From positions 1 to 64,000 of the forward strand of contig WGMA01000041.1 in NCBI GenBank assembly GCA_016125285.1: a stretch of 64,000 bases of DNA, written 5' to 3'. The stretch is from Phycisphaera sp. Lineage in GTDB: Bacteria > Planctomycetota > Phycisphaerae > Phycisphaerales > Zrk34. Below are positions 14,702 through 50,815 of this stretch, piece after piece. The notes under the pieces were generated by a model. The model was not told where the DNA came from. It was given only the letters and a program-made list of their open reading frames with translations, and did not search any database. Numbering within the stretch: position 1 is the first letter of the stretch; every line of letters begins with the position of its first letter. A program made the position numbers and the translations under genes.

Positions 14702-14718
14702 AATTTCACCCCCGGAAC

Positions 14719-14763
14719 GCGGCGGGTCGTCTGGAAATCTTCCTGCGGCCCGCCGCTGTTTTT
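14719..14763 (+). terminator. Rho-independent terminator
   Basis: GCGGCGGG at 14719-14726 pairs with CCCGCCGC at 14749-14756 (8 GC-only pairs) around a 22-base loop. It is followed by TGTTTTTAT. Confidence 0.7.
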
Positions 14764-14802
14764 ATAGCCTTCCTACGATTCGTCTCGCACGCCGAAAAAT
14801 GC

Positions 14803-14887: not shown

Positions 14888-15721
14888 ATGGCAAAGGGCG
14901 CACGACGTGCTGGCTTTACGCTGATCGAGCTGCTGGTGGTGGTTTCCATCATCGCGCTGCTGATCGCTATCCTGCTTCCCTCACTCAAGAACGCTCGCGA
15001 GTCCGCGAAGGCGACGGTGTGCCTCGCGCAGTTGCACGAGCTTGGTCACACGGTCCACATGTACGCCAACGAGTACAACGGCCGCATGTTTCCCTATTTC
15101 AAGAAGGGCGGCGTGAGTTCGGGCGGGCTGACCTACGCCAATTTCTGGATGACGCTGCTGGAGAAGTACCACGGCTACGAAGACGCGGTGCGTGTCTGTC
15201 CGTCGGCGCCGGTCAACCCGGAGGGGCGATGGAACTACACCACGGGCGCGCCGGACTCGACCTCGGTGTGGGGTTCCGTGAACGCGGCCTGGGGCAAGGA
15301 GACCGGAGCCGGTGGATTCCTGGGCAAGCACGTCGGCAGCTACACGTGGAACGCGTGGATGCACGGCGGTCGCAATTATGACATCAGCTTGTCGCCGTTG
15401 ACCAACGGCATCGATGACCACCGTCACTGGAAGCAACTGAGCTCGATCAAGGCCGCGTACGAGGTGCCGATGTTCGCTGACGGCGTCTGGGTGGATACGT
15501 GGTTCCAGAACCGCTCGGGTTCGTGGAGCGCGGTGCCGCCGACACTTCAGGGATGGAACTCCGCGGCGGGCCGCGTGTGCATCGACCGACACAAGATGGC
15601 GATCAACATCGCCTTCGCCGACGGCGGCGGCCGGCGCGTGGACCTGCAGGACCTGTGGCGTCAGCGCTGGAACACCGAATCGGAGCCGATGGATCCGCCG
15701 ACGCCTCTGCCGGCGGAGTAG
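14888..15721 (+). CDS. Type II secretion/type IV pilus-like prepilin (H-X9-DG-like)
   Basis: The protein has 277 residues. After a short basic leader (MAKGARRAG) comes the class III signal FTLIELLVVVSII, then a hydrophobic helix to about residue 33. A prepilin peptidase would cut after Gly and methylate the new Phe, and the Glu five residues on is the conserved assembly residue. The remainder is a pseudopilin-like domain with aromatic-rich segments. It ends with AFADGGGRRVDLQDLW, close to the C-terminal FxDGxV motif of the large planctomycete prepilin families. It stands alone, without pilus assembly genes. It would be inserted in the inner membrane with its globular domain outside. Confidence 0.85.
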   Translation: MAKGARRAGFTLIELLVVVSIIALLIAILLPSLKNARESAKATVCLAQLHELGHTVHMYANEYNGRMFPYFKKGGVSSGGLTYANFWMTLLEKYHGYEDAVRVCPSAPVNPEGRWNYTTGAPDSTSVWGSVNAAWGKETGAGGFLGKHVGSYTWNAWMHGGRNYDISLSPLTNGIDDHRHWKQLSSIKAAYEVPMFADGVWVDTWFQNRSGSWSAVPPTLQGWNSAAGRVCIDRHKMAINIAFADGGGRRVDLQDLWRQRWNTESEPMDPPTPLPAE

Positions 15722-15769
15722 CGCGACGCGTCGACGAATCCTGCGCCCCGGGTAGATAGCAATAAAATG

Positions 15770-15973
15770 CCCCGGGCCGCGGACTACTCGAGGCTAACTC
15801 ACTCGACCGCAACCCGGGGGTCTCGGGGTCTCTTGGATGCGTATAAAAAACTCCGGCCGCGAACTACTCGGGGCACATACACCCGACCGCGGCGCGGGGT
15901 CTTGGGGTCAAAAACCTGAGCCGTAGATTACGGGGCGAACTCACCCACTACGGCCCAGGCGTCTCGGGGTCTC
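15770..15973 (-). repeat. Three tandem covarying bulged hairpins (candidate structured RNA)
   Basis: Three units (15770-15819, 15851-15899, 15915-15959) share one architecture but little stem sequence. The outer stems are CCCCGGG/CCCGGGG, CTCCG/CGGGG and CCTG/CAGG. The middle stems are GCGG/CCGC, GCCGCG/CGCGGC and GCCGTAG/CTACGGC. A one-sided bulge reads ACTAC, AACTAC or ATTAC. The inner stems are TCGAG/CTCGA, TCGGG/CCCGA and GGG/CCC. The 9-base loops are GCTAACTCA, GCACATACA and GCGAACTCA. Each unit is followed on plus by a near-identical GTCTCGGGGTCTC-type motif. Read on minus, each hairpin ends in a T-tract (TTTT, TTTTTT, TTTTT), like a series of terminators, which is why minus is given. 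Pairing is kept while sequence changes, which supports selection on structure. Confidence 0.7.
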
Positions 15974-16274
15974 ATTTTGCGGGATGACCGACTGGCCAAA
16001 CGGCCAGCCGTGATCCTTCTCCACTCTCTGCGACACTCATCTCTCCCGCTGTACTCATTTCTCACCAGCGTGAACTTATGTTAGCAGCGCGTTTACTTGA
16101 GTACATGGGTTGAACTCCCCCATTTGATCTGTGGATATACGTAATCGGCGGTCGGGGCTGAAGGCGACCGACAGGCCGGGCGCACGCTGTTTGGACACGT
16201 GGGTCATCCCGGTTATTCTGGCCGACCCGTTGAACGTGTTTTGCCGCATTACCTCGAAGAATTCGCGTGATTTT
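15974..16274. other. Remainder of the prepilin-DUF1015 intergenic region
   Basis: No gene is seen. One further small hairpin is present, CTGGCC/GGCCAG at 15992-16007 with a 4-base loop. The rest holds no promoter that I can defend on either strand, although both the hairpin array (minus) and the DUF1015 gene (plus) would need one here. Confidence 0.5.
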
Positions 16275-17579
16275 ATGCCCGAGCTTCAGCCGATCCGTGC
16301 CATCCGTTTTCCGACTGACTCCGCGAACCACGACATCAGTTCGCGCATCGCGCCGCCGTACGATGTGCTCGACGAAGGGCCCAAGCGCAAGCTGCTCGAC
16401 GTCGACGCGCACAACATCGTGGCGATCGATCTGCCGGTCACGCCGCCGAAGACCGTCGGTCCCGACGCCGCGTACGCCGACGCCGGTGAGTTGTATCGTG
16501 CGTGGCGCGAGCAGAACGTGCTGGTGCAGGACGAGCGTCCCGCGGTGTACGCCTACGAGCAGGTCTACAACGTCGGCGACGAGAGCTACGCGCGGCGCGG
16601 GATGTTCGCGGCGTTGACCGTCGAGCAGTTCGGCAGGCCCGGCGGCGGTATCCATCGCCACGAGAAGACGATCAAGGCCGGTACCGACGATCGCTTCAAG
16701 CTGATGACCGCCACCGCGGCGCAGCTGTCGCCGATCTTCGGCGTGTACGACGACAAGGGCAACGCGGTCGCGGCCGTGCTCAACAAGCACTTCGACGCAC
16801 GCGAGCCCGACTTCCACGGCGTGACCGCCAACGACCGCGTCGACCACCGCGTGTGGATCGTCGACGACCCCGCCGACGTCGACGCCGTCCGCGCCGCGAT
16901 GGCGACCGCCGATGTGTTCATCGCCGACGGGCATCACCGCTACACCACCGCGTTGAACTACCACGAGGCGCACCCCGAGTCGGCCGCGGCCGCGGGATGC
17001 CTGTTCGTGCTCGTGCCGATTGACGATCCCGGCCTGCTCGTGCTGCCTACACATCGCGTGCTGTGCGGCGTCAGCGGCTTCGACATCGCGAAGCTGATCG
17101 AGATCATCAAGGCCGACGGACGGTTCACGATCCAGTTGACCGATCACGGCGCCGACGGCACACCGCAGATGGGCGACGATCTGCCGCGTTATGGTCACCA
17201 CGCGTTCGGCGTGTACAACCCGACGACCGGCAAGACCTACGCCGTATCGACGCCCGCCGAGGACCCGCTCGCGGACCTGATGCCCGAGCGTCCCGCGGTG
17301 TGGCGCACGCTCGACGTGGCGGTGTTCCATCACCTGTTCGTCGACGAACTGCTCCGCCCGAACTTCGGCGGCGACGCGATCACGTACAAGTATCCGCACG
17401 AGCTGTCGGAGCTGGTGCGGCTGAGCCACGACGAGCCCGATCGCGTCGGCGTGATCATGCAGGCCACGCCGCTGCGCAGCGTCTGCGAGGTGTCGCTGGC
17501 CGGCGATGTCATGCCGCCGAAGTCGACGTTTTTCTTCCCCAAGCTCGCGACGGGATTGGTGATCAACCCGCTCGATTGA
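16275..17579 (+). CDS. DUF1015 family protein
   Basis: This 434-residue cytoplasmic protein matches the DUF1015 family across its length. The N-terminus has an ALR-like strand (IRAIRFP), then RIAPPYDVLDE, the family hallmark PPYDV. Further on are HRHEKTIKAGTDDRFKLM, SPIFGVYDD, FIADGHHRYTTALNY and a VLPTHRVL segment. The GHHRYxTAL and ThR motifs suggest a phosphate- or nucleotide-handling active site, but the biochemical role of the family is not known to me. In other bacteria it is often found near serine or amino-acid metabolism genes, and here it is alone. The frame opens at 16131, but the ATG at 16275 gives the normal N-terminus. Confidence 0.9.
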   Translation: MPELQPIRAIRFPTDSANHDISSRIAPPYDVLDEGPKRKLLDVDAHNIVAIDLPVTPPKTVGPDAAYADAGELYRAWREQNVLVQDERPAVYAYEQVYNVGDESYARRGMFAALTVEQFGRPGGGIHRHEKTIKAGTDDRFKLMTATAAQLSPIFGVYDDKGNAVAAVLNKHFDAREPDFHGVTANDRVDHRVWIVDDPADVDAVRAAMATADVFIADGHHRYTTALNYHEAHPESAAAAGCLFVLVPIDDPGLLVLPTHRVLCGVSGFDIAKLIEIIKADGRFTIQLTDHGADGTPQMGDDLPRYGHHAFGVYNPTTGKTYAVSTPAEDPLADLMPERPAVWRTLDVAVFHHLFVDELLRPNFGGDAITYKYPHELSELVRLSHDEPDRVGVIMQATPLRSVCEVSLAGDVMPPKSTFFFPKLATGLVINPLD

Positions 17580-17736: not shown

Positions 17737-17765
17737 AACCCCTGTGAGAGCAGGGGTTTTTGTTT
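17737..17765 (+). terminator. Rho-independent terminator of the tRNA gene
   Basis: AACCCCTG/CAGGGGTT forms an 8-bp stem with a 6-base loop, followed directly by TTTGTTT. Confidence 0.85.
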
Positions 17766-17795
17766 GCGCCGGGATCGCCTCCGGCGTACGCATGC

Positions 17796-50619: not shown

Positions 50620-50698
50620 GCGTGTTTCTCCAAATGCCTGTTCAGCCCCCAGTATAGCGGCGGGGCCCCGGGGATGACAGACGTGAGGAGACAGGGAA

Positions 50699-50770
50699 CA
50701 GGAGGCAGGGGACAGGAGTGGCCGGTCGCGGCGCATGCGCATCTGACTGTTACCTGTCCCCTGTCTCCTG
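50699..50770. repeat. Imperfect inverted repeat between ispH and hpnC
   Basis: CAGGAGGCAGGGGACAGG at 50699-50716 is inverted at 50753-50770 with 17 of 18 bases matching, around a 36-base loop. Further CAGGG-type repeats extend both arms. It lies between the two divergent promoters, and the right arm ends 8 bases before the hpnC -10 box (TATACT, 50779-50784). Confidence 0.8.
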
Positions 50771-50815
50771 ACCCCTGTTATACTGTCGGCTTTGACCCGA
50801 AACGCTCCGCGCACC

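Follow-up and report, generated by a model that had tools for sequence, protein, structure and literature searches.

Three tandem bulged hairpins with minus-strand T-runs in one intergenic gap of a planctomycete-like genome

Why would one intergenic gap hold three tandem copies of a bulged hairpin, each ending in a T-run? The question arose from a 64-kb stretch of a planctomycete-like genome, which we refer to as the window. The gap (15722–16275) is located between a pilin-like gene on the plus strand (14888–15721), which codes for an N-terminal methylation motif (PF07963, E=3.6e-7), and a DUF1015 gene on the same strand (16276–17579), whose ATG at 16276 was judged by its orthologues; the neighboring proteins are of the pilin-like, DUF1015, Dabb and ankyrin types. 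The stop codon of the pilin-like gene lies 43 bp to the left of the array. The first-pass annotation had the array filling the gap before the DUF1015 gene, which proved incorrect, as about 300 bp are left between the array and the ATG. Because a sigma-70-like promoter of the DUF1015 gene was predicted by a promoter scan to the right of the array (plus strand, 16192–16219), the array is probably not part of the DUF1015 leader, provided that the prediction is correct. Similar -10-like elements (TATTCT or CTATTCG) were recognized by eye upstream of the DUF1015 orthologues. Upstream of the array, the nearest gene on the minus strand does not end until 17836, beyond a tRNA gene and the DUF1015 gene, which are both encoded on the plus strand, and this leaves the array without an immediately preceding gene on that strand.

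Several other features of the window were recorded in passing. A 13-nt inverted repeat (12 of 13 matching; 15980–15992 and 16199–16211) links the edge of the array to the DUF1015 promoter and may be due to chance. A strong plus-strand hairpin with a TTTTTA tail (−30.1 kcal/mol) is present just before the pilin-like gene (14703–14764), a bidirectional terminator-type hairpin (ACCCCTG...CAGGGGT) with its T-run mainly on the plus strand just after the tRNA gene (17740–17770), and, at 50674–50781, a strong inverted repeat whose heptamer-like units (CCTGTCC/CCTGTCT/CCTGACC) do not resemble the array. The pilin-like N_methyl families are very large, with 73, 95 and 108 matches in the genomes G000, G004 and G006, respectively.

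On the minus strand, the units follow each other in the order U3 (15908–15975), U2 (15844–15913) and U1 (15764–15834). They are 68–71 bases long and built on one plan: a flank and a T-run enclose a hairpin with about 13 pairs in the outer stem, 3–5 pairs in the inner stem, a 9-base loop of the TGAGTTNGC type and, on the 3' side, a 5-base bulge that reads GTAGT or GTAAT. The flank, GACCCC(G/A)AGAC, consists of two octamers in tandem, (RAGACCCC)2, the second of which partly pairs with the T-tract. In U3, the flank extends over 15961–15973 (GAGACCCCGAGAC), the bulged hairpin over 15960–15914 and the T-run over 15914–15910, running without any spacer directly into the flank of U2. The respective parts of U2 are found at 15899–15909 (GACCCCAAGAC), about 15902–15850 and 15850–15845, and those of U1 at 15820–15832 (GAGACCCCGAGAC), 15819–15770 and 15767–15764. 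The hairpin energies were calculated as −29.1 kcal/mol for U3 (onto TTTTT), −27.4 kcal/mol for U2 (onto TTTTTT) and −32.6 kcal/mol for U1, whose short tail (CATTTTATT) is the weakest T-tract of the three. An extra copy of the U1 stem foot, CCCCGGG, occurs at 15746–15752 and may compete for the 5' arm of U1 on the minus strand, but a chance occurrence is possible.

All three hairpins described in the first-pass annotation are thus present, and the architecture ascribed to them is indeed common to the units, as is the bulge with the inner stem, with some deviations in detail: the bulge of U3 reads GTAAT, its inner stem is shortened to 3 pairs, with U-G and G-C added in the loop, and the outermost stem of U2 is imperfect. 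The units are homologous, since all three pairwise local alignments (scores of 33, 24 and 17) exceeded 2000 of 2000 dinucleotide shuffles, whose maxima were 19, 14 and 15. The shared structure pairs 94% of its cells and contains five pairs changed on both sides, which was equaled by 0 of 500 shuffles, and pairing fell to 53–57% after shifting the partners by one base. In the outer stem, 15 of the 26 columns are variable, yet 92% are paired, and the earlier statement that the stem bases change while pairing is kept therefore holds. The bulge, loop and flank had been regarded as conserved, which applies to flank and bulge (2 of 16 columns variable vs. 15 of 26 in the outer stem, Fisher p=0.0045) better than to the loop (4 of 9 columns variable; p=0.023 if added to flank and bulge), these p-values being indicative because the regions were picked after seeing the data and only three sequences were compared. 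The covariation rests on three paralogous units because every search outside the array failed, and at a single locus it is not proof of selection on an RNA because template switching can also compensate palindromes. Together with the strand preference described below, these results characterize the array as a constrained structured element, more likely of RNA than of DNA.

The strand preference became apparent from folding the whole array, which yielded a z-score of −4.26 for the minus strand (matched by none of 300 shuffles) and of −2.29 for the plus strand (matched by 7 of 300), whereas the z-scores of single units were modest. Every unit hairpin is more stable on the minus strand, five G-U pairs are formed there vs. 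one on the plus strand (a count which alone is not significant, about p=0.11), and a T-run closes all three hairpins on the minus strand and none on the plus strand. In combination, fold z-scores, G-U pairs, stabilities and T-runs make a minus-strand RNA more likely than a DNA palindrome. The T-tracts predicted for the minus strand were accordingly located at the end of each unit, the last one being short. A stricter promoter scan revealed no convincing minus-strand promoter for the array, and only a relaxed scan produced a weak candidate, TGTACT-16-TAACAT with an extended TG (minus strand, 16078–16105; expected start at about 16071). A candidate ORF of 28 codons on the minus strand (15972–16058) has its stop codon at the start of U3.

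We searched for further copies of the unit using a covariance model, R1, which scored U3 with 83.8, U2 with 83.0 and U1 with 91.5 bits. Apart from the three units, R1 recovered nothing noteworthy in the source genome (6.09 Mb), and neither a DNA query nor a motif pattern added another copy. R1 found nothing noteworthy either in 40 relatives, 396 other genomes of the class and 391 other genomes of the phylum (overlapping with the class set; about 800 sampled class and phylum genomes in all), scoring the best 12 candidates per genome, so that diverged copies could be missed in these wide scans; deeper scoring of eight other family genomes with R1 was equally negative. The motif pattern, allowing for up to 3 mismatches, gave a single unconvincing match in the other class genomes, and a strict pattern gave three matches in 84,980 GTDB species and two in IMG/VR, none of which was a hairpin by R1. 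No copy was found in the phage and plasmid collections, in the DUF1015 orthologue neighborhoods of eight family genomes or next to the nearest pilin-like orthologues (G004 and G006). Rfam contained no family reaching its gathering score, in agreement with the earlier statement that no named RNA class matches the array. The homologues that the first-pass annotation had proposed to find by a covariance model were not obtained by any search outside the array, which is one of the two outcomes it had named as speaking against a functional element; the other, recurrence as ordinary dispersed palindromic repeats, does not apply because no further copy was found in the genome. While a new structured RNA family is recognized by homologues with covariation in other species, the units were found in this one array only.

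Candidates rejected from these searches were an R1 match of 21 bits on C44 (L013) and one of 25 bits in G022 (L014), both in coding sequence, as well as the best sub-threshold matches that R1 gave in sister genomes (L103, L104 and L107), which are ordinary single terminators with a hairpin and U-run and not bulged units. Scanning 1.15 Mb with a structural descriptor yielded 952 unselective matches, many of them in coding sequence, and the DNA of the entire gap, used as a query, retrieved only matches of 20–40 bases, one of which (L110) is a WD40-type coding motif. In L104 (1380–1455), CAAGACC heptamer repeats precede the terminator-type hairpin, and AAGACCC can pair with its GGGTTTT; this heptamer flank resembles the doubled RAGACCCC flank of the array. 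The source genome also carries (GGATGCT)n heptamer microsatellites (L071, about 16760–16834 on the minus strand; L087, near 144; L068, 8565; L076, 1100), and (GGATGCT)2 was matched 36 times in 1.15 Mb, often inside one run.

To see how the array compares with intrinsic terminators of the same organism, we turned to a 1.15-Mb sample of the genome. Perfect stems of at least 9 pairs adjoining a T-run occurred 50 times vs. 11 times in reversed controls, which makes intrinsic termination plausible for this organism. In the same sample, T-run hairpins with an energy of −15 kcal/mol or lower rarely lay less than 200 bases apart on one strand, and nowhere else in these 1.15 of 6.09 Mb did three strong signals of this kind follow each other as they do in the array. 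In all three units, a stable hairpin is followed immediately by a U-rich tract, with a short run in U1. The other terminators passing the same filter have uninterrupted stems of 9–12 bp and loops of 3–10, and the array departs from this simple form by its 5-nt bulge and the inner stem. Of the earlier proposal of serial terminators or processed small RNAs, the terminator-like minus-strand ends were borne out, with the reservation of a poor U-run in U1.

We therefore favor, with a probability of about one half, a lineage-specific minus-strand RNA with three serial intrinsic-terminator modules that arose by tandem duplication and probably constitute the 3' portion of a small non-coding transcript. 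Each module would consist of the C-rich RAGACCCC flank, the GC-rich stem of about 13 bp, the 5-nt bulge on the 3' side (GUAGU), the inner stem-loop and the U-run. Two tandem duplications in this lineage would have produced the three modules, which kept their pairing while the stem letters drifted. Homology of the units, kept pairing, the preferred strand, the U-runs and uniqueness are read from the sequence itself, whereas transcription, promoter, termination and any function in trans are inferred. RNA polymerase would enter from the gap of about 300 bp at the right, in which the transcript would also have to start, and would halt first at U3, next at U2 and finally at U1, leaving nested 3' ends on a short RNA, either non-coding or with a very small coding part. 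The array would also prevent antisense transcription from running leftward into the pilin-like gene. This explanation is further supported by the terminator form of the weak sister-genome matches, and it is weakened because there is neither a convincing minus-strand promoter nor an upstream minus-strand gene, because the U-run of U1 is poor and because the single units fold with modest z-scores only.

Termination alone does not explain the conserved bulge, the loop and the doubled flank octamer. Because the conservation of the bulge, the loop and the first flank octamer exceeds what termination needs, there is room for an sRNA or protein-binding role. It is possible, at a clearly lower probability, that the locus encodes a triplicate trans-acting or protein-binding sRNA, in which the flank ACCCCGAGAC, the bulge GUAGU and the loop UGAGUUNGC would do the work, as a seed or as a protein site, with the U-runs merely ending each RNA. 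This would agree with single-stranded parts being more conserved than the stems and with the precedents for tandem sRNA copies, including read-through forms, but the loop is variable, the second flank octamer may be conserved simply by pairing with the U-run, no per-unit promoters were found and other genomes offered no homologue in which to test the motifs. A CsrA sponge was rejected, since the GGA motif is absent from the loops. Rather unlikely, in our view, is a lineage-specific structured RNA class in which the three modules, with their doubled flank, bulge and loop, would bind a protein or base-pair with mRNAs, while the proportions of RNAs with one, two or three modules would depend on the terminator ends.

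Readings without a selected minus-strand RNA also have to be weighed. The near-perfect, GC-rich arms would suit a DNA-level palindrome array, either protein-bound or hairpin-forming, whose arms were homogenized by quasipalindrome template switching, and mutation by template switching in imperfect inverted repeats is well established for E. coli (PMC7202029). We consider this improbable given the 5:1 excess of G-U pairs on the minus strand (small numbers), the T-runs on one strand only, the bulge on the same side in three of three units and the lack of copies elsewhere that would point to a general DNA-binding site; nothing specific was found in favor of the protein-bound cruciform considered earlier. 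Plus-strand 3'-UTR hairpins that stabilize or end the pilin-like mRNA are slightly less probable still: the array directly follows this gene and no other plus-strand terminator was found between 15721 and 16190, but no U-run follows the hairpins on the plus strand, the plus-strand fold is weaker and the two pilin-like orthologues lack the array. Palindromic repeat units in an intergenic gap of one lineage finally recall a relic of a mobile or repeat element, which is largely refuted and very improbable, with no second locus in the genome and none found in phages, plasmids or IMG/VR. An integron attC array was dismissed by inspection, as the outer arms (CCCCGGG/CCCGGGG and similar) lack the RYYYAAC/GTTRRRY core, a REP/BIME or MITE-like dispersed palindrome for want of many genomic copies, type III antitoxin repeats because no ToxN/TenpN/CptN-type toxin gene follows the array, and a CRISPR array because the units are diverged throughout, vary most in their stems and have no spacer. 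The minus-strand terminator modules remain our preferred reading.

At present, with no homologue found, the array stands as a single-locus curiosity. If transcribed, it would offer a clear natural example of how a terminator or sRNA module diverged after triplication without losing its pairing, and one could test directly whether selection acts on the series of three stops or on the unpaired parts that are conserved.

Among known systems, REP/BIME elements and dispersed palindromes likewise form clustered intergenic palindromes, whereas the array has no second locus in the genome. The best sub-threshold Rfam match is the F6 sRNA (RF01791), whose long GC-rich terminator-type hairpin aligns over U1 only, with 23.6 bits vs. 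a gathering score of 46 (E=0.08); F6 has no bulge, and the family is named for mycobacteria. With intrinsic (Rho-independent) terminators, the array shares a GC-rich hairpin followed by a U-run and an A-containing flank able to pair with the U-run on the same strand, but it differs from them in its three serial copies, the stem of about 13 bp, the conserved one-sided bulge of 5 nt, the inner stem, the 9-nt loop, the doubled RAGACCCC flank and the lack of a same-strand gene upstream. LhrC1-5 of Listeria are tandem sibling sRNAs. Further tandem sRNA systems are CcsR1-4 of Rhodobacter (PMC7866481) and PrrF/PrrH of Pseudomonas (PrrF1/PrrF2/PrrH; PMC6794450). While the array differs from tandem sibling sRNAs in being known from its sequence alone, in one lineage only and without an Rfam match, it resembles CcsR1-4, PrrF1/PrrF2/PrrH and LhrC1-5 in consisting of tandem homologous units from which nested or read-through products are possible.
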